37,592 bases of DNA from Gemmatimonadota bacterium (lineage in GTDB: Bacteria > Gemmatimonadota > Gemmatimonadetes > Gemmatimonadales > GWC2-71-9), in the NCBI GenBank assembly GCA_017889745.1, contig JAGGAG010000004.1, positions 1 to 37,592 on the forward strand. The letters run 5' to 3'. Shown here piece after piece: positions 5,229-24,633 of the stretch; position 1 is the first letter of the stretch, and every line of letters starts with the position of its first letter. The translations under genes were made by a program, and so were the position numbers. The notes beneath the pieces were generated by a model, which was not told the DNA's origin, did no database searches, and saw nothing but the letters and a program-made list of their open reading frames with translations.

Positions 5229-5491
5229 TCGTGATGGACCGCGTGAATGCGCTCGCCCCAGGCTGGTCGCACGTGCTTTCTACCACCAACGACCTGGCCG
5301 AGCTCGACGCATTCCGCATTCGCGTGGGCGCACCGCGCCAGGCGTTTCACCTCAGGGGTCGGCGCCCGCACCTCGACCTCAAGAACGGGCCGCGGGAGCT
5401 GGCGCTGCAGCAGGCGGACGTGCGGGTGTTTGAGAGGACCGCGGAGCTGCTGCGATTCCTGAACGGTCAGGGAAGTATTCGTAGACGGTAA
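5225..5491 (+). CDS. Small DUF4031-like protein
   Basis: This 88-residue protein is either coupled to the hydrolase through a GTGA overlap (GTG 5225) or starts at ATG 5234. The pattern WSHVLSTTNDLAELDAFRIR, then VGAPRQAFH, then RPHLDLKNGPRELALQQADV matches my memory of DUF4031 proteins, which show 'SHLxAD..ELHAFA..IG', 'PHYDLT' and 'RA.A...GA' in the same order. The function of that family is unknown to me. The last residues SIRRR and the TAA stop are encoded inside a 7-bp repeat array (5483-5510), so the original C-terminus may have been altered by the array. It is the third gene of the transporter-hydrolase unit. Confidence 0.55.
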   Translation: MIVMDRVNALAPGWSHVLSTTNDLAELDAFRIRVGAPRQAFHLRGRRPHLDLKNGPRELALQQADVRVFERTAELLRFLNGQGSIRRR

Positions 5492-5510
5492 ACGGTAAAC
5501 GGTGAATGGG
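5483..5510. repeat. Heptamer array, ACGGTRA family, copy 1
   Basis: Four consecutive 7-bp units in phase read agacggt-aaacggt-aaacggt-gaatggg. The TAA stop of the DUF4031-like gene (5489-5491) lies inside the array. The same words occur at 18934-19014. Confidence 0.75.
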
Positions 5511-5544
5511 GGCAGCGGTACGCGATGAGGGGGGAGCGCGTGTG

Positions 5545-6006
5545 ATGATTCGCTCGACGATCGGCAAGGTAGCCGGGCCGCTCGTGGCCGCGTTCGTGGC
5601 CGGTGTCGCACGCGTCACCAACGGGCACCGACGGCGGCCGCTGACCGCGCGCGAGCTCCGCGACCTGGACGGCATGCTGCCGGGGCTCGACCTATCCCAA
5701 GTGCTCGTGGCGGAGGGATCGCGGCTGCCCCTGCTCCCGGGGTTCGTGGCCATCACGCTGGGGCGCACGATCTACGTCCGTGGGCACCTCGCGCGGCGAC
5801 CGGCCTCGCTGCTGGCGCATGAGCTCGCGCACGTCCGGCAATTCAGCGAGCGGGGATGGATGGGCATGACGGGCGCTTACGCGGCCCTGTGGCTCGAACA
5901 CGGATACGCGCAGCACCCGCTCGAGATCGAGGCCCGTGCGGTCGAACTGGCGTTCCTGAGGGGGAGGCGAGCCGCGCCCGGCGCGACCGAGGTCAGGACG
6001 GGCTGA
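5545..6006 (+). CDS. Small HExxH zinc-metallopeptidase-like protein
   Basis: This 153-residue protein has a hydrophobic N-terminal stretch (about 8-24) and the zinc motif H92-E-L-A-H96 in LLAHELAHVRQF. A candidate third ligand is the glutamate in HPLEIEARA about 33 residues later. That arrangement recalls short DUF4157-type putative metallopeptidases, which also read HELAHVxQ; the exact family is uncertain. The start at ATG 5545 is preferred over the longer ORF because GGGGGAG lies about 9 nt upstream, and the extra upstream residues come from the repeat array. Its substrate is unknown. Its 3' end overlaps the convergent YceI gene by 14 bp. Confidence 0.65.
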   Translation: MIRSTIGKVAGPLVAAFVAGVARVTNGHRRRPLTARELRDLDGMLPGLDLSQVLVAEGSRLPLLPGFVAITLGRTIYVRGHLARRPASLLAHELAHVRQFSERGWMGMTGAYAALWLEHGYAQHPLEIEARAVELAFLRGRRAAPGATEVRTG

Positions 6007-6568
6007 AGCCGAAAGTGACGGCCACGTGCACCGTGATGTGCTCGTTCATCTTGAGGATCCCGAGCAACTTGCTGAGCCCGCCGATCTTGTAGTCCTTGAG
6101 ATTGAGGGGGAAGCTCGAGTCCACCGTAACGCCCTGGGCACGGCGCACCACGACCGCCGGCAGCTCGACTGCCTGCGTCACGCCGTGGATGATGAAGTCC
6201 CCTCCCAGCACCGCATCGACCGAATCGCCCCGCTCCGCGTGCACCTGCACCGTCTTCAACTCGAAGCGAATCGCAGGATACTTGTCCGACTCCATCGACT
6301 TGTTGAGGTCACGGTCGCGCTTGTCGTTCCCGGTGACCAGCGTGTTGACCGGCGCCTCTACGAATCCGCGCACATCGGCGAGCGTTGGCCCGCCCGTCAT
6401 CGACCCGCTGACGGTGTGCGTGGTGCCGGTAAAGTCGCCGGCCGTCGCCTTGCCGTCGAAGCTGAGCGTGCCCTCGGTCACCGTGCCGTTCGGGACGGCC
6501 TGCTGCGCCGCCAGGGGGAACGCGGCGCGCAGGAGCGCGGCCAGGCCCAGCGCGGCGAGTCGCATCAT
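5993..6568 (-). CDS. YceI-family periplasmic protein
   Basis: This 191-residue protein has a signal peptide (MMRLAALGLAALLRAAFPLAAQQ) and a YceI-like lipocalin-type beta barrel. Typical features are the N-terminal FDGKATAGDFTGTTHTVSG, the middle SDKYPAIRFELKTV and the C-terminal HGVTQAVELP and FPLNLKDYKIG. YceI proteins bind polyisoprenoid or other amphiphilic ligands in the periplasm and often sit beside electron-transfer proteins. The start is the first of two ATGs, overlapping the stop of the barrel gene (ATGA). The track's longer N-terminus reads through that gene. It is the last gene of a three-gene unit led by a cupredoxin lipoprotein, and overlaps the convergent metallopeptidase gene by 14 bp. 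Confidence 0.85.
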   Translation of the reverse strand: MMRLAALGLAALLRAAFPLAAQQAVPNGTVTEGTLSFDGKATAGDFTGTTHTVSGSMTGGPTLADVRGFVEAPVNTLVTGNDKRDRDLNKSMESDKYPAIRFELKTVQVHAERGDSVDAVLGGDFIIHGVTQAVELPAVVVRRAQGVTVDSSFPLNLKDYKIGGLSKLLGILKMNEHITVHVAVTFGFSPS

Positions 6569-7419
6569 GAACCCAGCTTCCCGACGGCAAATCGGCCTGT
6601 CAGGCTGACGCTGCTGCCGTAGGTAACCAGCGAGAAGAACTGCCCCGTCACCGACCAGCGGCGTGCCAGGTCCCACGTCAGCCCGCCGAAGATCGCGGCG
6701 GCATTCAGGTTCGACTCCACCTTGCTGTCATCGACGATACCCAGGGCGTTGGTGTAGTTGACCTGGAAGCGCGGCATGAGTCGGGTGTAGCCACCGCCCA
6801 CGTACGGGCGCAACGTTCCCCGGCTGAACGAGGCGCCAAGCGTCAGGTCGGCTCCATAGACCGCCGGCATGAAGGAATCGTCGGATGGGGTGCCCTGGTA
6901 GCAGTAGTTCGCCGGGTCCTGCACATCCGCCTCATCACAGGTGAACGACCCATGCACGCTGCCGAACGCGGCATTGAGGCTGAAGTTCGCAACGAGAACT
7001 CCACCCAGCGGTGAGGACGACCAGTCGGCGCCCAAGCCGAGGATATTCGCCTGGATCCCCGATACCGGGATGGGCGGAACCCAGCCAGCCTCGGCGGCAA
7101 AGCCACTGCCAAGACCGACACGAATCCTGGGCTGCGCCGCCACGACGAGCGCGTTGGTGTTGGCAAGTGTCTGCCCCGAAAAGCAGGTGACCGGCGTGTT
7201 TTCGTAATCGCTTACCTCCGGCACCGTGAGCACACCGAGCCCGAGCTCGACGCGGCCCGCGGGCATTCGTGCGGGGCCGCGCGTCGGGGTGAAGGCAATG
7301 GCAACCGACTTGGTGCCCATTGTCTGCGCCTCGGGCGAACCCGCCGGTGCGACGCAGGGAGTCTGCGCCGTGAGCGGCGCCGCACCGAGCACCGCGAGCA
7401 GCGCCACGAGGTGTTTCAT
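6565..7419 (-). CDS. Predicted outer-membrane beta-barrel protein
   Basis: This 284-residue protein has a clear signal peptide (MKHLVALLAVLGAAPLTAQ). The rest is built of alternating-residue strands separated by Gly/Asn/Asp turns. Barrel-like strands are seen in RVELGLGVLTV, RIRVGLGSGFAAEAGWV, LRPYVGGGYTRLMPRF and WSVTGQFFSLVTYG. Cysteines at C22, in TCF and in SFTCDE...NYCYQG may form disulfides. I recognise no family name. It is 19 bp from the upstream cupredoxin lipoprotein gene and overlaps the YceI gene by an ATGA, so the three envelope proteins are probably made together. A role as a porin-like or assembly barrel is possible but unproven. Confidence 0.6.
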   Translation of the reverse strand: MKHLVALLAVLGAAPLTAQTPCVAPAGSPEAQTMGTKSVAIAFTPTRGPARMPAGRVELGLGVLTVPEVSDYENTPVTCFSGQTLANTNALVVAAQPRIRVGLGSGFAAEAGWVPPIPVSGIQANILGLGADWSSSPLGGVLVANFSLNAAFGSVHGSFTCDEADVQDPANYCYQGTPSDDSFMPAVYGADLTLGASFSRGTLRPYVGGGYTRLMPRFQVNYTNALGIVDDSKVESNLNAAAIFGGLTWDLARRWSVTGQFFSLVTYGSSVSLTGRFAVGKLGS

Positions 7420-7438
7420 TGGTGTGGTCGCGTGCGCG

Positions 7439-8134
7439 CTAGTTGACCGTCACGGTGCCGGACATGCCGTTGACGGTACCGGGCGATGGATTGGCGCCAT
7501 GCGCGCTGCAGAAGAACTTGAACGTGCCCGCCGCGGGGAACGTGACGTTGAAGCTCTGCGGCGCATCGAGCAGGGCCGGCAGGCCGGGACTGGCCGGCAG
7601 TGCTGACGCGTTGCCGACGTCGGGGCTCACGTTGTGGTTCGTGGCACCGCTGGCCCACACGAAGTGCACCGACTGGCCGGCACTGATGGTGATGGTGACG
7701 GGAGAGAACACCAGTGCGCCGCCGGGGGCGACCGTGATCGTCGGGACGACCGGCGACGTCGCCGTGAACGTCACGGGAGATCCGGTGGCACCGGCGAGCG
7801 ATGCGGTCGCCGTCTGGGCGCCGCCACCCGCACCGAGCGTCCACGTCGCCGTGGCGATGCCGCCCGCATCGGTGACACCACTTGGCGTGAGGGTTCCCCC
7901 GTTCGCGGTGGCCCACGTTACCGTGACCCCGGACTGCGCTGCGCCGGCGTCCGTGACTACCACCCGAAGTGGGTTCGCGAGCGCGACGCCGGCAGTGCCG
8001 GTCTGCGCATCGCCACTGTTGGTCGCGGTCTTCGCGATCGCCTGCGTGCTGGGCGCGCCACCGTTGTCACTGCTGCAGGCACCGAGTGCTGCTGCGAGGA
8101 GAAGGCCAGCGAGGGCCGGGGAAGTTCGCGACAT
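7439..8134 (-). CDS. Lipoprotein with Ig-like and cupredoxin (blue copper) domains
   Basis: This 231-residue lipoprotein has the lipobox AAALGAC with the lipidated cysteine at 20. Residues about 30-128 resemble a bacterial Ig-like domain of the invasin/intimin type (LANPLRVVVTDAGAAQSGV, TDAGGIATATWTLG). Residues about 130-231 form a plastocyanin-like domain with a full type-1 copper set: H167 in TNHNVS, C209 and H212 in FFCSAHG, and M224 in NGMSGTV. It should carry electrons or copper at the outer membrane or in the periplasm. It heads a unit with the barrel and YceI genes. The Ig domain probably acts as a stalk. Confidence 0.8.
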   Translation of the reverse strand: MSRTSPALAGLLLAAALGACSSDNGGAPSTQAIAKTATNSGDAQTGTAGVALANPLRVVVTDAGAAQSGVTVTWATANGGTLTPSGVTDAGGIATATWTLGAGGGAQTATASLAGATGSPVTFTATSPVVPTITVAPGGALVFSPVTITISAGQSVHFVWASGATNHNVSPDVGNASALPASPGLPALLDAPQSFNVTFPAAGTFKFFCSAHGANPSPGTVNGMSGTVTVN

Positions 8135-8287
8135 GAATCAGCCTCATGCAGAAGTGAAGATGGAAGGCGAGACGGCTTGATCGTGCAAGAGCGGTACACG
8201 CGAAATCTTCCTCGCGGCCAGCCACTTGCCCTGCTGCAAGACGTCGCGCACGGGGCGAATCGCACACCCGTTCGCGGATCGCCCAAC

Positions 8288-9145
8288 TCAGCGCGGTGGC
8301 CCTGTCTCCGCTGGCAGATCATCTCGCTGTCCCCATTCAGTCCAGGAACCATCGTACAGCGCCGCGTCTGTGACCCCGAGCACATGCAGCGCGAAGATCA
8401 GGCTGCATGCGCTGACACCTGATCCGCACGACGCAATCACCGGGCGATCGACATCAATACCTGCTGCTTTCGCCATATTGCGCAATTCCGCAGCACTACG
8501 GAGGAGCCCCCGGCCGTCGACGAGATTCGCATACGGGAGGCTCCTGCTCCCGGGTATATGTCCGCCACGGACACCGGGGCGCGGCTCGGGTTCGGTGCCC
8601 TCGAACCGGCCGCGCGATCGCATGTCCACGACCTGTGCGGCACCCTGCCGCTGTGCCTCGAGCACCTGGGTCGCGCTCCGGACCATGGCGGGACGCAAGC
8701 GCGCGTCGAACGCGCCGCGCGCGGCCGTGACCGCGTCGCCAGGCTCAATGGGCCCGCCTGCGGCCTTCCATGCGCCGAATCCACCATCGAGCAGCGACAC
8801 CGCATCGTGACCGAACACGCGGAACATCCACCACACGCGCGGCGCACTGAAATTGGTGCCCGAAGCGTCGTACACGACGACGTGGTCCGTGCTCGAGATG
8901 CCCAGCCGAGACACGACATCGGCGAACTGCGCGGCGGGCGGGAGGGTGTGGGGCAGCGGCGAGGCGGGATCGCTCGCCTCGTCGATGCTGAAGAGGTGCG
9001 CGCCGGGAATGTGACCCTCGCGGAACTCGCGGCGCGGGTCGCGGTTCATGCCGGACAGGTACCAGGACGCGTCGAGGACGCGGAGGCCGTGGTCGTGCAG
9101 GTGGTCCAGCAGCCAGCGAGCCGGGATCACAGGAGGGATTGTCAT
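8288..9145 (-). CDS. sseA: Sulfurtransferase, 3-mercaptopyruvate/thiosulfate type
   Basis: This 285-residue protein has two tandem rhodanese domains. The N-terminal domain is inactive (DASGTNFSAPRVWW, with no catalytic cysteine in the loop). The C-terminal domain holds the active loop C240-GSGVSAC. A Gly-Ser-Gly-Val loop after the cysteine is typical of 3-mercaptopyruvate sulfurtransferases, whereas rhodaneses have CRKGVT. The protein moves sulfur from mercaptopyruvate or thiosulfate to thiols or cyanide in the cytoplasm. The start is set at MTIPP (9145) rather than the longer ORF, because family members begin about there and a TACCTT hexamer sits 6 nt upstream. It is divergent from ada, with 74 bp between the starts. 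Confidence 0.85.
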   Translation of the reverse strand: MTIPPVIPARWLLDHLHDHGLRVLDASWYLSGMNRDPRREFREGHIPGAHLFSIDEASDPASPLPHTLPPAAQFADVVSRLGISSTDHVVVYDASGTNFSAPRVWWMFRVFGHDAVSLLDGGFGAWKAAGGPIEPGDAVTAARGAFDARLRPAMVRSATQVLEAQRQGAAQVVDMRSRGRFEGTEPEPRPGVRGGHIPGSRSLPYANLVDGRGLLRSAAELRNMAKAAGIDVDRPVIASCGSGVSACSLIFALHVLGVTDAALYDGSWTEWGQRDDLPAETGPPR

Positions 9146-9151
9146 GGCTGG

Positions 9152-9157
9152 AAGGTA
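9152..9157 (-). promoter_or_regulatory. Possible -10 element for a leaderless sulfurtransferase mRNA
   Basis: On the minus strand TACCTT is followed by 6 nt and then the ATG, and no Shine-Dalgarno is present. The spacing would put transcription start at or next to the start codon. No good -35 was identified. Confidence 0.35.
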
Positions 9158-9206
9158 GCGGTGGTTTGACCGCATGATTCGGGTAGCCCGGCGCGGCGGA
9201 GTTCGC

Positions 9207-9212
9207 TAACGT
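9207..9212 (+). promoter_or_regulatory. Possible -10 element for a leaderless ada mRNA
   Basis: TAACGT lies 7 nt before the ada ATG, with no Shine-Dalgarno. No copy of the enterobacterial Ada box (AAAGCGCA-type) was seen between the divergent genes. Confidence 0.3.
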
Positions 9213-9219
9213 CTGCTCC

Positions 9220-10257: not shown

Positions 10258-10287
10258 GGTCTTGAACTGACTACAGGGCAATGGCTT

Positions 10288-10312
10288 AGGACGTTCCGCT
10301 CCGGCACGTCCT
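10288..10312 (+). other. Hairpin downstream of ada
   Basis: A 7-bp stem (AGGACGT/ACGTCCT) plus an inner CCG/CGG pairing forms a compact hairpin 30 bp after the ada stop. There is no T-run, so it could be a weak terminator or an mRNA-end structure. Confidence 0.35.
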
Positions 10313-10342
10313 GGCATTACCAGACCTTCACACCATCACCTA

Positions 10343-10383
10343 TTGACCCTTTAGCTGGCAGCCCGTACGCTACAGGCAGGAGG
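10343..10383 (+). promoter_or_regulatory. Sigma-70-type promoter and ribosome-binding site for the DUF4384 gene
   Basis: TTGACC (10343-10348) and TACGCT (10366-10371) are separated by 17 bp. A full AGGAGG at 10378-10383 lies 5 nt before ATG 10389. The leader would be very short, about 10-12 nt. Confidence 0.6.
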
Positions 10384-10388
10384 ATACC

Positions 10389-11852
10389 ATGCTCACATTC
10401 CTGCTTGCCGCCTCGTTGATCGCCACCGATCCGCCGGCGCCTGTTTCCATCACGCTCAGCCAGGACGGACGCTACCTGCCCGGCTCAGGGGTACAGGTCA
10501 CCGTCCAGCCCGGTGCCGATGGCTATCTGCTGGTCCTCAATGCCGACCCCGATGGTCGCGTGCGGGTGCTCTTTCCGCTCGACCCGACTGATGATGCGTT
10601 CGTGAGGGGCGGCAGGAAGTACCAACTCGAAAGTCGCGGCGGCAGGAACACCGCGTTCGTGGTGGACTGGGCCAGCGGCAGCGGAACCGTCTTCGCAGCC
10701 CTCTCCAAGGATCCGCTGCAGCCCGGCGAGTTCGCACTCAACGGCCACTGGGACTATCGCAACCTGAAGCTCGACAGCGACGACGACGAGTTGGCGCTGC
10801 GTGCGCTCGCGGAGCGCATCGCGCCCGGAGGCGTGCAGTACGACTTCGCCCCGTACTTCATCGCGTCCGCGAGTGATGCCATCGTTGCCGGCGACGCGAC
10901 GGTGGTGGTATACGGATCAGGCAGCGGGTGCTGGGACTGCGGCTACTGGGGTGTCGGCTACGGTGGATGGGGCTGGGGTGTAAGCGTGGGATGGGGCTGG
11001 GGCAGCCCGTGGTGGGGTTATTACCCGTGGTACCCGTACTATGGCGGCTACTATGGCGGTTACTACCCGGGCTATTACCCGGGCTACTACCCGGGCTATC
11101 CAGGGTACCCCGGCTACCCGGGATATCCCGGCTATGGCGGCCAGTTGACTCCGTATCGCGAGCGCACGCTGACCCGCACCTGGAATGGCCAGCCACATCC
11201 TGGCACGACGCAGGCAGCGCCGGGAGGCGTCGGCGTGCAGGGCACGCTCGCGGGCGCGCCGAACTCGCCGGGTGGCGGATACCGGAACCGCAGCGAGACC
11301 GTTGGGGTGCAGGGCGGACTCGCGAGTACGGCGTCGACGCGTCGGCAGGCGGCGGGAATGACGTCTACCTCGCGCAGCGCCGCAACGGGAAGCGCATCAC
11401 GGCGACTCGAGAGCGGCCAGATGGCAGCGGCCAGGAACGCGTACCGGCCGGCGCCAGCGCGCGGTGAGCGGAGCGCCGGTGCGCAGGCCTATGCAGCTCG
11501 GCGGCAGACCAGCGCGCAAGGGTATCGCGTTCCGCTGCGCGGAAACGCCGCGGGTGCCGCGTCCGCAGACGTTGCGCGCCGATCCGGTGGCGCGGCGGTA
11601 GGCGGCAACGCGAACCGCGCCGGCGTTTCCGGCTCGCGCGCGTACGGCGGCAGCCGTAGCGGTGGCGGCAGCGTCGGGCGGACTTCGCCGAGCTACGGCA
11701 ACCGCGCCCCGAGTGCCTCGGGCGGCAGCCGCGGGTACAGCGGGTCGCGCGGCGCAGCGGGCGGCGGCATGTCGCGAGGGGGCGGCGGTGGTGGTGGTTC
11801 ACGCGGGTTCAGCGGTGGTGGTGGCGGAGGTGGCGGAGGGCGGCGGAGGTAG
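10389..11852 (+). CDS. Exported DUF4384 protein with Gly/Tyr/Pro repeats and an Arg/Ser/Gly-rich tail
   Basis: This 487-residue protein has four parts. It begins with a short signal-like segment (MLTFLLAASLIATDPP). A DUF4384-like beta domain follows at about 17-110 (GADGYLLVLNADPDGRVRVLFP, KDPLQPGEF). Residues about 175-250 are almost only Gly, Tyr, Trp and Pro, with GYYPGYYPGYYPG steps passing into GYPGYPGYPG. The last 230 residues are low-complexity Arg/Ser/Ala/Gly, ending in poly-Gly and GGGRRR. DUF4384 occurs in exported proteins and beside kinases and is thought to be a binding module. The aromatic repeat and RGG-like tail suggest a surface-attached, self-associating or wall/nucleic-acid-binding role, but this is inference. 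It has its own promoter and strong ribosome site, and a hairpin follows the stop. Confidence 0.75.
   Translation: MLTFLLAASLIATDPPAPVSITLSQDGRYLPGSGVQVTVQPGADGYLLVLNADPDGRVRVLFPLDPTDDAFVRGGRKYQLESRGGRNTAFVVDWASGSGTVFAALSKDPLQPGEFALNGHWDYRNLKLDSDDDELALRALAERIAPGGVQYDFAPYFIASASDAIVAGDATVVVYGSGSGCWDCGYWGVGYGGWGWGVSVGWGWGSPWWGYYPWYPYYGGYYGGYYPGYYPGYYPGYPGYPGYPGYPGYGGQLTPYRERTLTRTWNGQPHPGTTQAAPGGVGVQGTLAGAPNSPGGGYRNRSETVGVQGGLASTASTRRQAAGMTSTSRSAATGSASRRLESGQMAAARNAYRPAPARGERSAGAQAYAARRQTSAQGYRVPLRGNAAGAASADVARRSGGAAVGGNANRAGVSGSRAYGGSRSGGGSVGRTSPSYGNRAPSASGGSRGYSGSRGAAGGGMSRGGGGGGGSRGFSGGGGGGGGGRRR
11041..11140 (+). repeat. In-gene tandem repeat encoding GY/PGY steps
   Basis: About 100 bp of 12-15 bp degenerate units (variants of tacccgggctat) encode the GYY, PGYYPGY and PGYPGY steps. 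The units differ at synonymous sites, suggesting old expansion under selection for the peptide. Confidence 0.7.
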
Positions 11853-11865
11853 AGCTGAAATCCGG

Positions 11866-12621: not shown

Positions 12622-14103
12622 ATGTACCGAATCCGCCGGGAATCAGGCGAGGAAGTCACCTTCGGCTCCGTCGACGAGTTCGGCGCGGCAGTCGCGGCTG
12701 GAGTGGTGACAGCCAAGGCCGAGATCTTCCACGCCCGCGCCGAGAAGTGGCTGCCGATCGCGTCGCACCCGCACTTCAAGTTGGCGCACGACCGGGTCGC
12801 CGGTGCCGCGGCGCCGAAGCCGCCGACGCGGACTCCGGGGCTCACTGCATCGGGACAGCGGCCCGCCCTCGGCGTCTCGGGTCAGCACCCGGCAGTCGGC
12901 GCGTCGGGTCAGCGTTCAGCGACAACCACACCGCAGGCCAGCGCACCGGGTGCGCCGGCAACGGCCAGCACCACGGCACCCCGCGCACCGCAGCTGCGCG
13001 CAGTGCGGCCCGAAGCGACGTCGGCTGCCGCGCCCACCCTTCCAGCCGACTCCTCCGTAGCCAACAAGCCCTCCCCGCGCTGGAACAGCGCGCAGCGGCC
13101 CGCCAGCAGGGCGGTGGCGCCGATGCCGTCGGCACCTGCTGCACCGCCATCGAGTGACTTGCGCCTGGTGCGCAAGGACGCGTTGCTGAGTAGCGCCGCC
13201 ACCGCGCCGGTTCTGCCCGAGTTTGAGCTCCTGCCCCCGCCCGAGCCCGCTATCATCGAGCCGGTCGCTGCCTCGCCGGTCGTGGCCCAACCGGTTACAT
13301 CCGGGCCAGTCGTGGTCGAGCCGGTTGCTGCTGCGCCAGCCGTGGTCGAGCCGGTCGCGGTCGAGCCGGTGATCACGGAAGCGGTGACGGTTGAGCCGAC
13401 GGTTGAGACGGTGGTGGAGCGCTCGCCCGCCGCGGTGGAACTCGTATCCCACGAGGAGAAGCCGGCCGCCGCGCGTGGCGACGTCGAGATCATCAATCCC
13501 GACCGCACCATGCCGGTCGTGTCCGACCGTGAGATCCCGGCTCTCGAGATCCCGGCGCCGATTCGCGACTTCGCCCCGGATGACGCGGCCGCCGAGCCGG
13601 TGGCCAGTTCCCGCTCGAAGACGCCGCTATTCGTCGGCCTGGGCCTCGTGGCCGCGCTAGCGGCGGTGATCGGGTTCTTCGTCCTGAAACCGTCAGGTGC
13701 CGCGCCGACCGCCCCGGGCAAGCGCGCAGCGAGCCCGGCACAAGTCGAGGCCACCAGCGCCCCCGTCGGGGCGCAGCCGGCGCCGAGCAGCCCTGGTGCG
13801 ACCGTCACCAAGCCGCCCACCGGCGCCTCGACCGGACTCGGTGGTGACGTGCAGCCCCGCAAGCCCCGGAAACAGTCGGATGGCGCCGAGACGGCGTCCA
13901 AGGCGACTATTGGCGATGGCCTCGAACCGCCGCCGGAGGCAGTGCTCCCGGCGGCGCCGAAGCTGGGTAAGATCGGCGACGCGGCAGCCCTGCCGACCGT
14001 AGAACCGGGCACGACCCTGAAGATGCAGGACCGCGCCAACGCCCTGGAGCGTCAGCGCCGGCTGATCGATTCGAGCATGCGGAGCCAGGAAGACTCGAAA
14101 TAG
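12622..14103 (+). CDS. Pro/Val/Ala-rich single-pass membrane protein with a small N-terminal domain
   Basis: This 493-residue protein is of unknown function. Residues 1-55 form a compact domain (RRESGEEVTFGSVDEFGAAV, AEKWLPIASHPHF) that loosely recalls GYF_2-like modules; this is only a resemblance. A disordered segment follows with ASGQRPAL/VSGQHPAV/ASGQRSAT repeats, then a region (about 200-270) of VEPV-type repeats, then a predicted transmembrane helix (about 332-352, LFVGLGLVAALAAVIGFFVL). The C-terminus is a Pro/Ala-rich tail with a charged helix near the end. The likely topology is N-terminus in the cytoplasm and tail outside. The long Pro/Val/Glu linker resembles spacers of envelope-spanning proteins. 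It ends 5 bp from the convergent pncA stop. Confidence 0.6.
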   Translation: MYRIRRESGEEVTFGSVDEFGAAVAAGVVTAKAEIFHARAEKWLPIASHPHFKLAHDRVAGAAAPKPPTRTPGLTASGQRPALGVSGQHPAVGASGQRSATTTPQASAPGAPATASTTAPRAPQLRAVRPEATSAAAPTLPADSSVANKPSPRWNSAQRPASRAVAPMPSAPAAPPSSDLRLVRKDALLSSAATAPVLPEFELLPPPEPAIIEPVAASPVVAQPVTSGPVVVEPVAAAPAVVEPVAVEPVITEAVTVEPTVETVVERSPAAVELVSHEEKPAAARGDVEIINPDRTMPVVSDREIPALEIPAPIRDFAPDDAAAEPVASSRSKTPLFVGLGLVAALAAVIGFFVLKPSGAAPTAPGKRAASPAQVEATSAPVGAQPAPSSPGATVTKPPTGASTGLGGDVQPRKPRKQSDGAETASKATIGDGLEPPPEAVLPAAPKLGKIGDAAALPTVEPGTTLKMQDRANALERQRRLIDSSMRSQEDSK

Positions 14104-14108
14104 GCGCG

Positions 14109-14741
14109 CTACACCACCCGGCCGGACAGCACCTCAGCCGACCATACCAGCCTCACGCCGCGGCGCTCCCAGTCACTGAGGAGCGCCGCAGTGTTCTGGG
14201 GACTGATGGCGCGGGTGGCATCGGTAACGAGGTGAATGCGCGCCTTCGGCCGGTGCCGGAGCAGTCCCTCGATCGCATAGCGATTGCACACGTCGAGCGC
14301 CACGCCGTAGAGCACGATGTCCGATGGATCGAGCAGGTCGAGCAGCGGCAGCACGTGAGGGTTGGTGAAGACGTCGAACCAGTGCTTGTGCAGCAGGATG
14401 TCGCCGCGATGCGCTCGCACGCCGGGCGGCAGCGGCTCATCGGGTTCGATGACCAACGGGTCGCGCAGGGTGGTCTCGGGGATTCTCCGCTGGCCGGGTG
14501 TGCCGCGCATGCAGTGCTCGGGAAACGACTCGGCGAAGTCCGGCGTGTCGCTCAGCTCGCGGTGACCGGGCACATGATCGTCGGCACTCGCCACGATGCG
14601 GATGCCCCGATCGTGGGCATACGCCGTGAGGGCGCCGAGGGCGGGGATGATCGCCTCGCTGTCACCGACGTAGAGCTTGCCGGTGGCACGCATGAAGTCG
14701 TGCTGGGTGTCGACGTCCCAGAAGATCGAGTTGTCAGTCAT
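14109..14741 (-). CDS. pncA: Nicotinamidase (isochorismatase-like cysteine hydrolase)
   Basis: This 210-residue protein converts nicotinamide to nicotinate. The catalytic triad is visible as D11 (DVDTQHDFM), K119 (LHKHWFDVF) and C152 (GVALDVCNRYA). The metal site is D54-x-H56, H60 and H76 (ADDHVPGH and FPEHCMRGTPG), and the 'P-HC-x-GT-G' segment is characteristic of nicotinamidases. It follows pncB on the same strand, so the two carry out consecutive salvage steps. The start codon lies inside a heptamer repeat array (14733-14816), whose units encode the first residues MTD. There is no Shine-Dalgarno in the array, so initiation may depend on the pncB message. Confidence 0.85.
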   Translation of the reverse strand: MTDNSIFWDVDTQHDFMRATGKLYVGDSEAIIPALGALTAYAHDRGIRIVASADDHVPGHRELSDTPDFAESFPEHCMRGTPGQRRIPETTLRDPLVIEPDEPLPPGVRAHRGDILLHKHWFDVFTNPHVLPLLDLLDPSDIVLYGVALDVCNRYAIEGLLRHRPKARIHLVTDATRAISPQNTAALLSDWERRGVRLVWSAEVLSGRVV

Positions 14742-14816
14742 CAGTCATCGGTCGTCAGTACGTGGGCATCTGACAGCTGCCGACTGCCTGCCGACCGACA
14801 ACCGTCGACCGACGAC
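14733..14816. repeat. Heptamer array, GTCGGCA family, with internal reversal
   Basis: Twelve consecutive 7-bp units keep phase across 84 bp. The first four read gtcagtc-atcagtc-atcggtc-gtcagta. After two divergent units, later ones read gactgcc-tgccgac-cgacaac-cgtcgac-cgacgac, the reverse complement of the same word family (gtcggca, ggcagtc). The array fills the pncB-pncA gap and includes the pncA start codon. Confidence 0.7.
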
Positions 14817-14828
14817 CCCAGCCACACC

Positions 14829-15893
14829 TCACGTCACCCTTTCCAGTCGCGAATTCGGCCGGTACCCCCGCCCCACCTTGGCGCAGGGCTTTCCATCGAG
14901 CAACACCACGTCGGCGGTGAAGTCGAAGCGCCCCTCGAAGAGAGACGAACCGACGCCGTAGGCATCCACCGGCACGGCGAGGCGCTCGAACTCGCGGATC
15001 TTGTCCACGGTGAACCCGCCCGACACCACGATCCGCACGTGCCCGAACCCACGCCTGTCGAGCGCGGCGCGCACGTTTTCCACCAGCCGAGGGTTGACTC
15101 CCGTCGGGCGGAAGCGGCCCATCTCCTCGAACAGGGACCGGTCCACCAGCATCTCACTGGTGTCGATCCGGACGCCGTACAAGCGATTTCCCATGGCCTC
15201 AGCCACCTCGAGCGCGGTGCGCACACAATCGTTCTCGAAATCGACCAGCGTCACCAGGCGCACCGATGGGGGCATGTATTCCGCGAACTTCCGCGTGGCG
15301 CGCACAGTGTCGCCGGCGTAGGCGGCAATGAGTGCGTGCGGTACGGTGCCGACTCCCTCGCTGCCCCACCAGCTGGCCTGCGCATCCGTCGACACGCCGA
15401 TGGCACCGGCAATGTGCGCGGCGTAGCCGTCGCCGGTCTGTACCAGCCAGTGATCGTGCCGCGCGGGGAAGAACATCACTTCCTTGGGCGCCGCCGCCTC
15501 CACCACCTGGCGGGTGTTGGTGCCCACCTTGGTGCGGCGCGCCAGCACGCCGAGGTAGAGGGTTTCCAGGTGGGCGAAGGTGTCGTACGGTCCCTCGATC
15601 AGCAGTACCGTCTCCCACGGTTCGATGGCATCGCCGTCGTACAGTGCCTGAACGCTGAGTTCGGGCCAGCGGTCAGAGCAGAGCTTGAGGATCGCAATGG
15701 CCTCGTCGATACCGCCCAGGAAGGCGTGTTGCTTGCCGAAGACCTGCATGGTGACGTGCGGCCGGTCGCCGTCGGCGAGCAGTATCTCGCGGGTACGGAC
15801 GAAGTACTTGTCGGAGTAGTACCCGGCCCGCATCCGTTCGACGGGGAGGTTGAAGATCGCAGGATCGAGCCGCGGGCGATGTGGTGCCGTCAT
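14829..15893 (-). CDS. pncB: Nicotinate phosphoribosyltransferase
   Basis: This 354-residue protein transfers phosphoribosyl from PRPP to nicotinate with ATP, giving nicotinate mononucleotide for NAD. It shows the NAPRTase N-terminal signature MRAGYYSDKYFVRTREILL, the TNTRQVVEAA and FPARHDHWLVQTGDGYAAHIAG segments, and the phosphate-binding VSGGFTVDKIREFE and DAYGVGSSLFEG near the C-terminus. At 354 residues it is shorter than many bacterial NAPRTases (about 400 or more) and closer to compact archaeal-type forms. It lies 6 bp after a membrane-protein gene and upstream of pncA, so a nicotinamide-to-NaMN salvage operon is likely. Quinolinate phosphoribosyltransferase shares the fold but not these N-terminal motifs. 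Confidence 0.88.
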   Translation of the reverse strand: MTAPHRPRLDPAIFNLPVERMRAGYYSDKYFVRTREILLADGDRPHVTMQVFGKQHAFLGGIDEAIAILKLCSDRWPELSVQALYDGDAIEPWETVLLIEGPYDTFAHLETLYLGVLARRTKVGTNTRQVVEAAAPKEVMFFPARHDHWLVQTGDGYAAHIAGAIGVSTDAQASWWGSEGVGTVPHALIAAYAGDTVRATRKFAEYMPPSVRLVTLVDFENDCVRTALEVAEAMGNRLYGVRIDTSEMLVDRSLFEEMGRFRPTGVNPRLVENVRAALDRRGFGHVRIVVSGGFTVDKIREFERLAVPVDAYGVGSSLFEGRFDFTADVVLLDGKPCAKVGRGYRPNSRLERVT

Positions 15894-17734: not shown

Positions 17735-18930
17735 GGCGGCATGCGGCAGGAGGCGGTCGGCAGTCAGCAGTCGGTCGACAGGCAGCAGGCTGGTTGGTGC
17801 TGGTCGCGGGAGTGCTGCTTGGTGCGAGTCCGGTCCACGCGCAGGGGATCTCCGCCAGGAAGACCTACCCGGGGCAATGGCTCACGAGTTACTACCCGTT
17901 TGTCGCCACGCTGCCCAACAACGGTCCGAGCTTCGAACTGCGGGCCCAGCACTGGCAGATGGCTCCCTACGAGTCGCGCGTCACCGCCGGGATCCTCTTC
18001 AGCGGACGCGCGGCGTGGGCGCCGTGGGGTGGCAGCTGGCTGGTGGACGTCGGCATGAACGCGCCGCTGTTGAGCCCGGGATGGCGGCTCATGGCCGACA
18101 TCCGCGCCGGCACCGAGACGCGCTACGGATACTACGGGCTGGGCAATACCACCGGTATCGATCCCGACGCCACCAGGGACACCGAGCCGTACCTCTACCG
18201 GGTGGAGCGTGGACTGTACGCCGCCACGGTGGACCTGACCCGCAGGATCGTGGGGCCCCTCGGCGTCTCCGTGATGCTCAACGGCGCCATCGCCGACTAC
18301 ACGTCACTCTCGCCGTCCTCACTGTTCGAGCTGGGATTCGGGCCGGAACTCAAGCAGACCGAGGGCTCGGTAACGGGCGCGCTGGTATTCGACCTGCGCG
18401 ACAACGAGTACGACACGCGGAAAGGGCTGGTGGTGGAGGCCGGTGGGCAATACGGCGGCTCGGAGCGGAACTACTCACGCTGGTACGGCATCGCACGGGG
18501 GTGGTTCCCGGCCACAAAGAGCACCGTGCTCGCCGCTCGCGTGTTTGCCACCAACATCGGCGGCACGCCGACCCTGCTCTCACAGGAAGTGGTGCCGGGC
18601 TGGGAGTCACCCTATGCCACGCTCGGCGGTGAGGACTCGCACCGGGCGCTTCCCTACGGCCGCCTTACGGGATCGGGACTGATCGGCACCAACGTCGAGG
18701 TCCGGCAGGACATCATCGCAAAGGGTGAATACGGCGCGCTCGGCATCGTGCTGTTCATGGACGCGGGCCGCTCGTTCCTGAATGACTTCCAGGTGACGCT
18801 CGACGACTGGACGGTGGGTGGCGGCGGCGGGCTCGTTCTGCGGATCCTGCGGGGCAACGTGTTCATCCTGACCTACGGCATCTCGAAGAACGAGAGCCAC
18901 GTGGGGTTCAGGACGGGATGGATGTTCTGA
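17731..18930 (+). CDS. Omp85/BamA-type outer-membrane barrel protein
   Basis: This 399-residue protein has a signal peptide (hydrophobic core WLVLVAGVLLGASPVHAQ) and a C-terminal barrel like the surface-antigen (D15) domain of Omp85 proteins. Typical are VFDLRDNEYDTRKGLVVEAGG, LGGEDSHRALPYGRLTGSGLIGTNVEVRQDI and a last strand ending in an aromatic residue (VGFRTGWMF). There are no clear POTRA domains before the barrel, so it is a short, barrel-only member. It starts at GTG 17731, overlapping the preceding hydrolase gene. The positively charged n-region GGGRQSAVGRQAAG is encoded by a heptamer repeat array (17742-17790). A second array, of another family, follows its stop codon. Confidence 0.75.
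   Translation: MRRHAAGGGRQSAVGRQAAGWLVLVAGVLLGASPVHAQGISARKTYPGQWLTSYYPFVATLPNNGPSFELRAQHWQMAPYESRVTAGILFSGRAAWAPWGGSWLVDVGMNAPLLSPGWRLMADIRAGTETRYGYYGLGNTTGIDPDATRDTEPYLYRVERGLYAATVDLTRRIVGPLGVSVMLNGAIADYTSLSPSSLFELGFGPELKQTEGSVTGALVFDLRDNEYDTRKGLVVEAGGQYGGSERNYSRWYGIARGWFPATKSTVLAARVFATNIGGTPTLLSQEVVPGWESPYATLGGEDSHRALPYGRLTGSGLIGTNVEVRQDIIAKGEYGALGIVLFMDAGRSFLNDFQVTLDDWTVGGGGGLVLRILRGNVFILTYGISKNESHVGFRTGWMF
17742..17790. repeat. Heptamer array, GTCGGCA family, inside a signal-peptide n-region
   Basis: Seven 7-bp units in phase read tgcggca-ggaggcg-gtcggca-gtcagca-gtcggtc-gacaggc-agcaggc. They are translated as the n-region of the Omp85-like protein. The unit gtcggca is shared with the 14733-14816 array. 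Confidence 0.7.
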
Positions 18931-18933
18931 ACT

Positions 18934-19014
18934 GGGGTGAACGGCAAAGGGTAAACGGTGAACGGAACGGTTGTTCCCGTTTAACCGTTCACCGTTTGCC
19001 GTTTACACTGTTCA
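18934..19014. repeat. Inverted heptamer array, ACGGTRA family, copy 2
   Basis: The left arm reads ggggtga-acggcaa-agggtaa-acggtga-acggaac. The right arm reads gttcccg-tttaacc-gttcacc-gtttgcc-gtttaca, which is the same family in reverse complement. It fills the gap between two convergent genes and encodes the last residues VNGKR and the stop of the thioredoxin-like gene. Confidence 0.78.
18953..18997. terminator. Hairpin between convergent genes, possible bidirectional terminator
   Basis: AAACGGTGAACGG (18953-18965) pairs perfectly with 18985-18997, and an inner AACGG/CCGTT stem (18966-18970 with 18977-18981) closes a 6-nt loop. It is built from the heptamer arrays. There is no long T-run, so termination is inferred only from position. 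Confidence 0.45.
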
Positions 19015-19549: not shown

Positions 19550-19554
19550 GGCAC

Positions 19555-20697: not shown

Positions 20698-20825
20698 TCG
20701 GTACCCAGCCTATGCATAAGGTCCTGAAATAGCTGCACTTACAGAAGCCCCGGAAGATAGCCGGGAGGGCGGCTTGCCTCAACACCACGGCTATCGGTGA
20801 GTGAGGGCTCAGCCTCGGACCGCGT

Positions 20826-20831
20826 TACATT
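20826..20831 (+). promoter_or_regulatory. Possible -10 element for a leaderless tetR-type mRNA
   Basis: TACATT lies 6 nt before the ATG with no Shine-Dalgarno, as at the sufE and sulfurtransferase genes. Confidence 0.35.
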
Positions 20832-20837
20832 ACCAGC

Positions 20838-21479
20838 ATGAACGCCCCCACCACCCCACCACGCAAACGCGACGGCGAGGCCACACGCCAGCGGCTGCTG
20901 CGGGCGGCACTCGACCTGTATACGACGGTTGGATTCCGGGGCACGACGACCCCGGCAATCGCCTCACGGGCGGGCGTGGCGGAGGGGACGATCTACCGGC
21001 ACTTCACCAGCAAGGAGCACCTGCTCAACGAGGTGTACCGGAGCGCGCAGAAATGGGCGACCGGGCTCCTCAAGGAGATCGAGGAGCAGGAGAAGGCCGC
21101 TCGCGCCTCGGAACGGCTGCAGCGGGTAGCTCGACGGTTCCTCGAGGCGGCGGAGCGGGATCCCGCGGCGCTCCGGATGCTGCTCTACAATCCGGCCGAG
21201 AAGAGCCTGGACGACAAGAGCCGCGAGGCGGCCCGCGAGTTCCGGGATGGGCTGCAGCAGATGGTGGCGAGTGGAAAGTCGGATGGACTGGTGCGGCCAG
21301 GGCCGGCCGATCTCTGGGCATCGGCGTGGCTCTCGCTCATTGCGCTTGCTGCCGAAAAGGTGGCGAGCCGGGAATGGCCGCCGGACCACCCGCACCTGCA
21401 GCTGCTCATCGACTCCGCCTGGGATGCCGTCTCGGCCAAGCCGATCGCTCCGGACACGGCGGCGGTACCCTCAGCGTAG
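20838..21479 (+). CDS. TetR/AcrR-family transcriptional regulator
   Basis: This 213-residue protein has an N-terminal TetR DNA-binding domain: ATRQRLLRAALDLYTTVGFRG (helix 1), TTPAIASRAGVAEGTIYRHF (helix-turn-helix) and TSKEHLLNEVY (helix 4). The C-terminal part (about 75-200) is helical and variable, as expected for a ligand-binding domain. Such regulators repress nearby or divergent genes until a small molecule binds. The nearest candidate target is the divergent saccharopine-dehydrogenase-like operon, with 140 bp between starts, but I could not identify a clear palindromic operator. Its 3' end is 12 bp from the convergent lipoprotein gene. Confidence 0.9.
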   Translation: MNAPTTPPRKRDGEATRQRLLRAALDLYTTVGFRGTTTPAIASRAGVAEGTIYRHFTSKEHLLNEVYRSAQKWATGLLKEIEEQEKAARASERLQRVARRFLEAAERDPAALRMLLYNPAEKSLDDKSREAAREFRDGLQQMVASGKSDGLVRPGPADLWASAWLSLIALAAEKVASREWPPDHPHLQLLIDSAWDAVSAKPIAPDTAAVPSA

Positions 21480-21491
21480 GCCGCAACGGGC

Positions 21492-22259
21492 CTAGCGTGC
21501 GGCTTCGCGCCGACCAGTGAACACCGTGAGGTCGCGCGGATTGACCAGCGACCCGCGCCAGCGGACGATCCGTTCTCGCCCCGGACCCACGGGCCGCACC
21601 ACCAGTTCCCCATTCAGTTGATAGCCCAGCGAGTCATCACCCCAGCGAACCGGATTCGTGGCGCCCGCCGCGAGCGTAGCCGGCGACCCCGAGTCGGGAT
21701 AGACGCAGAGCGCCGCCGCTCCATCGCAGGGTGCCACGCGGGCGAACGCCGGTGATCCCACCCATACGCTGAACGCCTGTTCCGCCGCGCGCAGATCAGC
21801 GGGCGACATTTCCGCCGGCGCGGGTGGAGAGGGCGGCGCGTTGAGGCGGAGGATCGTGCGCGTAGTGCGCACGACGAGCGCGCGCCCACCCTCGGTCCAG
21901 GCGAGCGCGAGCGGTGCGCCGGAGCTGTCGGGGAGCCCCAGCTCGCGCTCCGACCCGTTGAGCAGGTTCATGAGCCAGATGCGGGTGCGGGCGGTGTCGG
22001 ACTGCTCGCGCGAGCGGAGGAACGCGATCACCTCGCCCGTGGGCGAGAGCCGGGGCGACCACTCGGCCGGGAGCGAGAAGGTAAGCTGCACCGGGTCGGA
22101 TCCTTCCGGGCTCATGGCCCAGAGGTCGCCGCGGCCGTCGGGGGCATCCGCGACCAGCACCACGTAGGCGTCGCGACCGACCTCGAACTTGTGCCGCAGC
22201 GGCGGGAGCCCGGTGCAGGCCGCGAGTGCCAGGCCAAGCAGTGCCGTGCTACGGTGCAC
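21492..22259 (-). CDS. Lipoprotein with TolB/WD40-like beta-propeller repeats
   Basis: This 255-residue lipoprotein has the lipobox ALAAC and the lipidated cysteine at about 15. It shows blades of the TolB/PD40 type: GRGDLWAMSPEGSDPVQLTF, WSPRLSPTGEVIAFLRS, RIWLMNLLNGSERELG and ALAWTEGGRALVVRT. The blade count is too low for a complete six-blade propeller (about 3-4 visible), so it may be a partial propeller. The start overlaps the upstream M1 peptidase gene by 11 bp, so it is the last gene of the Dabb-GNAT-peptidase-lipoprotein unit. Periplasmic or outer-membrane location is expected; function is not known. Confidence 0.7.
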   Translation of the reverse strand: MHRSTALLGLALAACTGLPPLRHKFEVGRDAYVVLVADAPDGRGDLWAMSPEGSDPVQLTFSLPAEWSPRLSPTGEVIAFLRSREQSDTARTRIWLMNLLNGSERELGLPDSSGAPLALAWTEGGRALVVRTTRTILRLNAPPSPPAPAEMSPADLRAAEQAFSVWVGSPAFARVAPCDGAAALCVYPDSGSPATLAAGATNPVRWGDDSLGYQLNGELVVRPVGPGRERIVRWRGSLVNPRDLTVFTGRREAAR

Positions 22260-23865
22260 GTTCGACCTTGGCCTGCAGCAGCCACTTGTCGTTCGGGTCG
22301 ACGACTACCGCCTCCGGGGCGCGTGACTCCGGCACCCTGACCCGGGTGGTGGCTCCGCTCGCATCGACCGTAACCAGCTTGCCGCCCACGTCGATCTCCA
22401 GCGCCGGAAGGCGCCGAAGGCCCCACCCCGGCGGCTGGACCTGCAGGATTTCCAGGTCGACCGCATTCCCGTTCCGGGTCCAGCGCACGGTGAGCATCGG
22501 GTAACCGGGCAGCATCAGCGCCTGCGTAAAGAACCAGTCGAGGTCCTGCCCCGATACCTCCTGCATCACCTCTTCGAAGTCGGACGACAGCGCAATGCCG
22601 TTACGGTAGCGACGGTAGTAGAGCTGAAGGCCGGCAAAGAAGGCCGAATCACCCACGATGTTGCGCAGCTCGTTCAGGACCCAGGCGCCCTTTGGATAGT
22701 TGTTGGTGCTCAAGAGCCCCATGAGATCGGTAGCCGTCGTGTCGACGATGGGCGTCTCCGTGACGGGGTTCTTCACGAACACGCCGTCCTTGCCCTTCTT
22801 CCCGAAGACAGCGTCGGCGTGCTGCCGCATCTTGGCCCGGAAGGCGCTGTCGCCGTGCACGTGGCCGAGCCAGAGAGCCGCGAGGTAGGTGGCAAACCCT
22901 TCCGACAGCCAGAGGTGATGCCAGTCGGCCTCGGTGACGGCGTCGCCGAACCACTGATGGGCCGTCTCGTGCGCGATGATCTCCTCGCCGACTTGCTTCG
23001 CCGGGTAGAGCTGGGCGGCGTAGAAGATGGCGGTGGCGTTCTCCATGCCCCCGAACCGGGTGCTGGTCTCGACGTGCGCCAGGCTGGGATAGGGGAACGG
23101 CCCGACCATCTGGCTGAAGTACTCGACGATGGCCGGCGCCACGCTGAACGCCTGCGCGGCGTAGGCCGAATCCTTCGGATAGGACCACGCGGTCTGGGGG
23201 ACGCAGGGTGCCGTGCACGACGCGGGCGTGAGTGCGGTTACCGCCATGCGCGCGGCGCCGAACACGAAATTCGACGGTGGAATGCGGGTCTCCAGCCGGT
23301 ACTGCCAGGCCGCACGGTTCCGGGCCAGCGTATCCACCTTCACCAGCGTCCCGTTGGCGATGACCTCGAGGTCGAACGGTACCTCCACGCGGAAGTTCAC
23401 TTCCGCCTTGTCGGAGGGATGATCCTGCACCGGCAGCCAGAGGTGGGCCCGGTCGGGCCAGTTGTCGGCGAAGAAGGTGCGGTTGCCGCTCGAATCGGTG
23501 CGCACCACGAGCCCGTCCCGCGCCACGCCATGGTACCTGATGCGGGTACGGAGGGTGTCTCCCGCCTGCTTGTCGTGCGGGATGTACACGATGTTGTCCT
23601 CGCGGCCGTAGGCGGTGCGATGCACCCGGGTGTTTTCCCGGCCGTCGATGAGCACGCGCACCACGCGCATGGCGGAATCGAGCGGAACGACCACGGGCGC
23701 GTCCGACCCCAGCACCCAGACGGTCTCCACCTCGCCCACGATGTGGGACCCGGTGTCGCTCACGGCGATCAGGATGTCGTAGCGGATGGCGTCGTGGACG
23801 GTCTTGACGGTATCGGCACGCGCGGCGAGCGGACCCTGCAGCGCGAACAGGAGAGCGAGGATCAT
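22249..23865 (-). CDS. Secreted M1-family metallo-aminopeptidase
   Basis: This 538-residue protein starts at ATG 23865 (GGGAAGA upstream), overlapping the GNAT stop by ATGA; the longer ORF runs through that gene. The N-terminus looks like a signal peptide (MILALLFALQGPLAARA). The beta-rich first domain (to about 210) is followed by the catalytic domain. That has the exopeptidase motif GGMEN (272-276) and the zinc site H299-E300-x2-H303 with E322 in LWLSEGFATYL, that is HExxH-x18-E. At about 540 residues it is shorter than PepN-type enzymes and lacks most of the C-terminal helical domain; similar short secreted M1 enzymes are common. It trims N-terminal residues from peptides outside the cytoplasm. 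Confidence 0.88.
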   Translation of the reverse strand: MILALLFALQGPLAARADTVKTVHDAIRYDILIAVSDTGSHIVGEVETVWVLGSDAPVVVPLDSAMRVVRVLIDGRENTRVHRTAYGREDNIVYIPHDKQAGDTLRTRIRYHGVARDGLVVRTDSSGNRTFFADNWPDRAHLWLPVQDHPSDKAEVNFRVEVPFDLEVIANGTLVKVDTLARNRAAWQYRLETRIPPSNFVFGAARMAVTALTPASCTAPCVPQTAWSYPKDSAYAAQAFSVAPAIVEYFSQMVGPFPYPSLAHVETSTRFGGMENATAIFYAAQLYPAKQVGEEIIAHETAHQWFGDAVTEADWHHLWLSEGFATYLAALWLGHVHGDSAFRAKMRQHADAVFGKKGKDGVFVKNPVTETPIVDTTATDLMGLLSTNNYPKGAWVLNELRNIVGDSAFFAGLQLYYRRYRNGIALSSDFEEVMQEVSGQDLDWFFTQALMLPGYPMLTVRWTRNGNAVDLEILQVQPPGWGLRRLPALEIDVGGKLVTVDASGATTRVRVPESRAPEAVVVDPNDKWLLQAKVERAP

Positions 23866-24305
23866 TCTTCCCTGAGGCTCAGCGTGAAGTGGTAGGCGTT
23901 GATGTGCATCCCCTCCCGAAAATAGAAGCGATGCGCCCGGAAGCGGTGGACCCCGGAATCGAGGTCGAAGGAGTCGCAGTCCCTGTCGCGGGCGTACTGG
24001 ATGAGCCACTGGATCAGGGTAGCCCCGCAGGCGTGCGACCGGCTGGCCTCGGTGGTGACGAGGTCGTCGACGTACAGGTTCTTGCCGCGGGCGAGGATGA
24101 CGTTGATGCGGAACCCGGCCACCGCGCGGACCTCACCGTCCTTCTCCAGGGCGGCGAGGAGGTAGCCCTCCTTCTGCATCAGCCGGACCAGGCGGACGAA
24201 GGTCTCCTGGGCGAGATGCGGCCGCAGTTCCAGCATGACGGGGAAGCAGCGGGCGATTTGCTCGTCGGTCTCTGCCAGCCAGATCGCGGCGGCCGAGCCG
24301 GTCAC
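23862..24305 (-). CDS. GNAT-family N-acetyltransferase
   Basis: This 147-residue protein has a GNAT fold: LLAALEKDGEVRAVAGFRINVI (strands 2-4), LYVDDLVTTEASRSHACGATLIQWLIQYAR and a C-terminal strand-loop with FDLDSGVHRFRAHRFYFREG. The acetyl-CoA pyrophosphate loop is RSHACGA, a variant of the usual Q/RxxGxG/A, with the signature acidic D-D-L before it. The substrate is unknown. GTG start and stop overlap neighbours by 4 nt on both sides, placing it in the Dabb-GNAT-peptidase-lipoprotein unit. Confidence 0.83.
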   Translation of the reverse strand: MTGSAAAIWLAETDEQIARCFPVMLELRPHLAQETFVRLVRLMQKEGYLLAALEKDGEVRAVAGFRINVILARGKNLYVDDLVTTEASRSHACGATLIQWLIQYARDRDCDSFDLDSGVHRFRAHRFYFREGMHINAYHFTLSLREE

Positions 24306-24601
24306 GCCGGCACCTCGAAGTCCATGGCCAGGCGCGCTTCCCGAATGGGCAGCAGGTACGTCTTCGCCACGTCGACGTGGTGGGGGTGATCGACGTAGCG
24401 CTTCACCGCCGCCATGTCATCGACCACCACCAGCAGGGCGTGGGTGTACTCGGAGCGGCTCTCGGCGAGGTTGGGCCCGAAGGAGACGGCACGGACCTCC
24501 GGGATGCGGCCCTTCATGCCAAGGAGCGCAGACCCTGCGGCCGCCACCTGCTCCGGCGTGGTGGAGGGAGCCCAGCGAAACAGGACGACGTGATGGATCA
24601 C
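24302..24601 (-). CDS. Dabb (stress-responsive A/B-barrel) domain protein
   Basis: This 99-residue protein matches the small dimeric ferredoxin-like Dabb family: N-terminal MIHHVVLFRWAPSTTPEQV, middle VRAVSFGPNLAESRSEYTHALLVVVDD and the C-terminal YVDHPHHVDVAKTYL. In the family these proteins bind small hydrophobic molecules or act on them; the role here is unknown. The start is GTG 24601, with no Shine-Dalgarno. A heptamer array (24606-24633) ends within 5 bp of it. It heads a four-gene overlapping unit. Confidence 0.82.
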   Translation of the reverse strand: MIHHVVLFRWAPSTTPEQVAAAGSALLGMKGRIPEVRAVSFGPNLAESRSEYTHALLVVVDDMAAVKRYVDHPHHVDVAKTYLLPIREARLAMDFEVPA

Positions 24602-24605
24602 GGGA

Positions 24606-24633
24606 GGAGCCAGGAGTCGGGAGTCGGGAGTTC
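24606..24633. repeat. Heptamer array, GGAGTCG family
   Basis: Four 7-bp units in phase (ggagcca-ggagtcg-ggagtcg-ggagttc) directly precede the Dabb start codon. On the gene's own strand they are pyrimidine-rich, so they do not supply a ribosome-binding site. Confidence 0.65.

Follow-up and report, generated by a model that had tools for sequence, protein, structure and literature searches.

The intervening sequences (IVSs) of 23S rRNA genes in Leptospira and Coxiella resemble the elements described here in having a PF05635 open reading frame (ORF) of the S23p kind enclosed by terminal inverted repeats (PMC4990558). The 428-nt IVS of Coxiella contains an S23 ORF, is closed by a terminal stem of 28 bp and has GACAGAT heptamers in tandem, their number depending on the strain, and earlier proposals that IVSs are mobile are cited in the same study (PMC4990558). 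IVSs differ in lying within rRNA and in being removed from the RNA by RNase III (PMC4990558), whereas the present elements are found between protein genes, use a word particular to each genome and have abundant gene-less copies.

Heptamer repeats have been described separately. The GGGAATC and GGGGA(C/T)T repeats of Xanthomonas and Nostoc are intergenic, with 70–75 convergent plus/minus pairs per Xanthomonas genome, and in Xanthomonas, as here, the G-rich strand is sense after stop codons and antisense before starts (PMC4692102). They differ in that an association with mobile elements was generally not found and no S23 link was reported (PMC4692102). The cyanobacterial STRRs and the TAACTGA repeats of Beggiatoaceae are also many-copy heptamers at gene edges, but they have been presented as direct repeats, for which regulatory roles are proposed, and not as the arms of gene-carrying elements (PMC4679880). 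S23 or four-helix proteins are mentioned in neither the Xanthomonas (PMC4692102) nor the TAACTGA (PMC4679880) paper, and the open-access literature yielded no paper connecting heptamer repeats with an S23 gene. An S23 protein structure is known from X. campestris (2GSC, XCC0516).

The window, meaning the whole 37,592-nt stretch analysed here, belongs to a Gemmatimonadales MAG (2.79 Mb, 77% complete; the source genome). It contains heptamer arrays at all five places named by the initial annotation, on which sequence and lag-7 scans agree:

18934–19014, no strand assigned: gene-less complete element of the ACGGTRA family (left arm 18934–18967, loop, right arm 18976–19010), from sequence, the '+-' pair and the fold
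14729–14817, no strand assigned: gene-less complete element of the GTCRGYM (GTCGGCA/GTCAGTC) family, from sequence, the lag-7 scan and the fold
5481–5509, plus strand: half (single) arm of the ACGGTRA family, from sequence and the lag-7 scan
17736–17790, plus strand: decayed arm of the GTCGGCA family, from sequence and the lag-7 scan
24605–24631, plus strand: single arm of the GGAGTCG family, from sequence and the lag-7 scan

The content of the window is two hairpins and three half-arms. A strict lag-7 scan returned 5481–5509 and 24605–24631 and nothing in 20 Markov shuffles of the window, bearing out the periodicity that had been claimed; the other three arrays exceed a lower threshold only and are backed by copies across the genome. 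The description of uninterrupted runs of up to 12 units does not hold for 14733–14816 and 18934–19014, each of which consists of two opposed arms around a loop. These same two arrays can fold, as had been proposed, at −47.5 kcal/mol (z = −4.8) and −48.8 kcal/mol (z = −6.4), respectively, and the remaining three fold no better than shuffled sequence. A known RNA family was rejected, as a search of the window against Rfam gave no match at the gathering threshold; sub-threshold miRNA matches to the hairpin reflect nothing more than its near-perfect stem.

All five arrays touch gene ends, as first reported, the gene start beside 17736–17790 being uncertain. The element at 18934–19014 sits between convergent Omp85-like and thioredoxin genes, its right arm running into the minus-strand gene at that gene's 3′ end, and the element at 14729–14817 lies between isochorismatase-like (14109–14741, minus) and QRPTase-like (14829–15893, minus) genes; further GTCGGCA copies occur elsewhere in the source genome. 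The half-arm at 5481–5509 supplies the TAA stop (5489–5491) of the ORF at 5225–5491. The array at 17736–17790, the most decayed in the window, with heptamers mixed with an 18-bp period, starts directly 3′ of the asparaginase stop (17734) and is probably read into the N terminus of the Omp85-like ORF. The arm at 24605–24631 lies 3 bp from the start of a minus-strand Dabb gene (24302–24601). The window also holds a small ORF with an eCIS core domain (5545–6006; PF13699, 5.8e-06) and two coding minisatellites unrelated to the heptamers, one of 12/18/24-bp Tyr-Pro-Gly-rich units (11037–11135) and one of 30/15-bp units (13256–13370).

The initial annotation had proposed a search of the genome for further arrays, and these were found. 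In 810 kb of the source genome, on contigs that were partly chosen, 60 intergenic tracts had a lag of 7, and lags 14 and 21 gave 31 and 12, respectively; every remaining lag between 4 and 20 had only 0–4. Some contigs were picked for holding matches, so that densities are biased, whereas polarity and gene context should be much less affected; genes were called with a simple codon-usage caller. The ACGGTRA pattern, at up to three mismatches, had 365 overlapping matches in the source genome as against one for the reversed control. As in STRRs, the units are tandem, 7 nt long, mainly intergenic and present in many copies.

The ACGGTRA array clusters comprise 36 plus-minus pairs and no minus-plus pair, beside 40 single arms that include some chance matches inside genes. 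The polarity of the pairs is constant, with a GTGAACG-type arm on the left and a CGTTCAC-type arm on the right. The consensus of the aligned arms reads AACWGC, four GTGAACG units and GG, and conservation ends sharply beyond the outer cap and inward of the GG; the centres of the pairs are 2–53 nt long and unconserved. Pure slippage at unrelated sites, with the inverted pairs arising by coincidence, would fit the variable unit numbers and the arrays of GAGCGGT that run in one direction with up to ~10 near-perfect units. Slippage alone, one of the mechanisms first put forward, is nevertheless contradicted by the left-plus/right-minus polarity (36 against 0), by the capped ends, by hundreds of copies of one common word and by the same words flanking an S23 gene (see below), and it can hardly be the explanation. 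Telomerase-like end addition at breaks would yield the identical polarity; a discrete element was preferred to it as accounting better for the capped, conserved ends and for the copies that carry a gene.

The one-direction GAGCGGT arrays of the source genome are longer and purer (7–10 units; L037 10678–10730, L043 5924–5990, L060 29–99 and L062 1629–1685) and look slippage-expanded. Several have a GCGTGA cap like that of the ACGGTRA arms, and an fhb gene of Aridibacter (L280; fhb is defined below) is flanked by GAGCGGT. At L083 2894–3021, three same-direction arms follow one another with repeated caps (TCACGCNGTTC), as stacked insertions or duplications would.

Of 65 arms adjoining gene 3′ ends, 44 contain the stop codon of that gene. 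The GTGA and GTAA words hold TGA or TAA and 7 is not a multiple of 3; hence three or more units in a row place a stop in each frame of that strand. Arrays of this kind could be hairpins made and selected by the host (terminators, mRNA 3′ stabilisers or G-rich/quadruplex structures) and grown by slippage, with the S23 gene merely inserting in or near them. The many arrays directly 3′ of stop codons and the stable folds would suit such a role, as would the Xanthomonas repeats, which are transcribed and form quadruplexes in vitro (PMC4692102). Against it, some elements lie between co-directional genes and two lie in divergent spacers, and the dispersed copies have caps and a genome-wide word in common; with the further evidence given below, this origin appears improbable. 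The two arms of a gene-less element resemble each other (0.80) no more closely than arms of different elements do (0.82), so arm-to-arm copying after insertion is unsupported; coevolution of the arms was accordingly dropped as a candidate, pairing not being visibly maintained post-insertion.

On contig C184 (L089 12895–13425), two arms 450 bp apart enclose a minus-strand ORF, which is the only PF05635 match (9.3e-18) in a search of the 77% complete source assembly. The arms consist of ACGGTRA words with caps similar to those of the gene-less elements. This S23 gene, also termed 23S_rRNA_IVP or four-helix-bundle gene (PF05635), is called fhb here. Of 61 genomes from the family and order, 51 have a PF05635 match above cut-off, the source genome included, and a profile built from seven fhb proteins finds 2GSC at 1.9e-37. 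The window copies themselves are without an S23 gene, and the source assembly, at 77% completeness, holds no fhb bearing GTCGGCA or GGAGTCG arms.

Left and right flanks of 400 bp were compared at 91 fhb loci, and an inverted repeat (score at least 16) brackets 78 of them. The corresponding control figures were 1 of 167 for flanks paired across different genomes, 2 of 196 for ordinary 300–600 bp genes of three genomes (1/145, 1/23 and 0/28) and 4 of 160 for random intervals. The bracketing of fhb genes by matched arms tells against host-made hairpins. Among the periods of these flanks at threshold 12, 7 is the strongest (29 loci on the left, 27 on the right), followed by 8 (16 and 17), every other period reaching at most seven loci. 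The left arm is G-rich in 70 of the 78 loci, and the arm words vary among loci while agreeing across each gene. In G039, G041 and part of G053, fhb is surrounded by long inverted repeats with no clear heptamer period, so that the constant feature is the inverted repeat and not the heptamer. Five loci (L199, L200, L211, L224 and L241) have very long inverted repeats (58–148 bp) without simple heptamers, some of the arms being themselves palindromic, and may represent a different fhb subfamily. An Rfam search over 20 fhb loci gave no rRNA and one tRNA only.

The dispersed words of a genome recur in the arms of its fhb genes. Among the 61 genomes, TTGGCTA matches are most numerous in G060 (344), G002 (234) and G008 (85), and GGACGGAA matches in G036 (89), G032 (77), G035 (52) and G020 (38); in all seven the fhb arms carry the word or a one-base variant. 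When fhb-arm probes were set against sampled DNA in a 12 by 12 table, the own genome topped eight rows, mostly by a wide margin, three rows had no own matches (small samples) and one row was empty. Likewise, the GGTGCGT dispersed in L114 is an fhb arm of the same genome (L271), and the GTCGTGA dispersed in L126 recurs as the arm of the one fhb in its genome (L269). G031 has 14 GGACGGAA matches with no PF05635 detected in its 78% complete assembly; the matches would be remnants, or the fhb gene is missing from the assembly.

Among the Gemmatimonadota, the boundary 3′ of the Omp85-like gene, occupied in the window by the ACGGTRA hairpin, bears differently worded arrays in L120, L122, L126 and L129, and at least 11 further relatives have no array there. 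It reads as a favoured site that has been occupied repeatedly and independently. At another, orthologous site (L114 10250–10500, L121 10560–10830, L122 10820–11080 and L123 10780–11040), heptamer inverted repeats of related words (GTGCGYC) fall, in four genomes, in the interior or at the 5′ end of a gene encoding a transmembrane segment and then a Tat-like motif, and are apparently read in frame.

Heptamer-armed fhb genes were also found on plasmids of Nostoc, Calothrix, Anabaena, Aulosira, Trichormus, Geminocystis and Pseudanabaena and on one Azospirillum plasmid. Of the 17 plasmid loci, 12 have an inverted repeat that reaches the cut-off, the figure for cross pairs being 17 of 272. Their arm words are heptamers of the STRR kind (CAGGAGT, GGGAACA, GGGAGTA, GGGTGTA and TTAGCTT), the first three being cyanobacterial fhb arms. 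In Aridibacter (Acidobacteria) the fhb arms are GGAGACG, GTGAGCG and GTTCAAA. The plasmid copies sit between annotated protein genes. In plasmid CRISPR operons, fhb elements lie between cas genes (L295 and L306, cas6/cas4; L301, cas10/cmr3), the cas6-cas4 placement occurring twice, in different cyanobacterial genera and with different arm words.

A block of ~416 bp, 82% identical, is present in three plasmids, its ends coinciding with the outer heptamers and its flanks being unrelated. At one site, the two genes that neighbour the element in L307 and L314 are separated in four plasmids by a mere 13 bp containing no repeat, the spacer of L307 being 441 bp; a second site likewise offers empty and occupied forms (L323 against L308, L313 and L315). 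Empty forms without any repeat at these two sites are a further argument against host-made hairpins. GTAAT stands on both sides of the insertion at the first site and is possibly a 5-bp target duplication; over 72 loci no signal of target duplication was seen, the element ends being fuzzy. L312 corresponds to the L307 element minus ~230 bp of its interior, including most of the gene, and is thus a gene-less derivative with the ends of its parent, as in MITEs; in the source genome, too, caps and arms are held in common. The fhb protein, with dN/dS of 0.10–0.15, is under purifying selection.

Like bacterial MITEs and REPINs, the gene-less copies are short inverted repeats dispersed in intergenic DNA. 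They differ in their tandem-heptamer arms and unconserved centre and in the want of a Y1_Tnp or RVT_1 partner in the source genome. They could nonetheless be MITE/REP-like elements moved by an ordinary transposase encoded elsewhere in the genome, with S23 as a passenger; the dispersal of short, gene-less inverted repeats and the possible target duplication at one site speak for this. Y1_Tnp (PF01797, RAYT type) and the reverse transcriptase RVT_1 (PF00078), the two families searched for, are absent from the source genome at 77% completeness. In addition, the word varies by genome and by element, a poor fit to one sequence-specific transposase, and between the arms of 78 loci it is the S23 gene that recurs, with no transposase ORF, and that gene is constrained. 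Movement by an ordinary transposase is therefore considered unlikely. With neither gene found in the source genome, a RAYT/REP system and a retroelement or diversity-generating retroelement were rejected as candidates. Avd of diversity-generating retroelements belongs to the same four-helix-bundle fold family as S23; unlike Avd systems, the source genome is without a reverse transcriptase.

Comparison across loci shows the element to be discrete, with arms that match, derivatives lacking the gene and a constrained protein, and to have been either inserted at its sites or precisely lost from them. We regard it as highly probable that the arrays are arms of a family of inverted-repeat mobile elements whose full copies carry one S23 gene (PF05635), the window arrays being most likely gene-less or decayed copies. 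The suggestion of a transposing or copying element akin to STRRs was right in direction, given the dispersed copies and the STRR-like arms of cyanobacterial fhb, but missed the inverted-repeat unit with its gene. A full element would measure ~0.45–0.7 kb and consist of a left arm, the S23/IVP gene and a right arm repeating the left in inverted orientation, each arm typically having 3–5 copies of a 7-nt word (sometimes 8–10 nt) with the G-rich strand inward, and every genome having its own word or words. Loss of the gene would leave short hairpins (60–120 bp) and half-arms, which may spread or persist at gene edges, often giving a stop codon. We infer that the S23 protein recognises the hairpins of its own family and acts in trans, such that gene-less copies could spread, and that arm length may change through 7-nt slippage and drift.

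The element would then be IVS-like, outside rRNA, with MITE-like progeny, and is possibly a wholly new class. More tentatively, and with the balance of probability somewhat against so broad a claim, S23/fhb may constitute a separate, widespread mobile class without a recognisable transposase, for which a pentameric four-helix-bundle protein, its own hairpin arms and host enzymes would suffice, the heptamers of Cyanobacteria, Xanthomonas, Beggiatoaceae, Acidobacteria and Gemmatimonadota and the rRNA IVSs all being its products.

Heptamers at gene ends have been known from cyanobacteria for decades, and later from Xanthomonas and Beggiatoaceae, with no accepted origin, and S23/four-helix-bundle genes are common, with both their function and the origin of rRNA IVSs unexplained. 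The matching arms around most S23 genes tie these together, connecting the scattered 7-base repeats of bacterial genomes with their S23 intervening sequences, both of them long unexplained. A mobile element of this kind would explain how genome-specific words exist alongside a constant 7-nt period, and the matched arms raise a directly testable question, whether S23 mobilises hairpins that consist of its own word.
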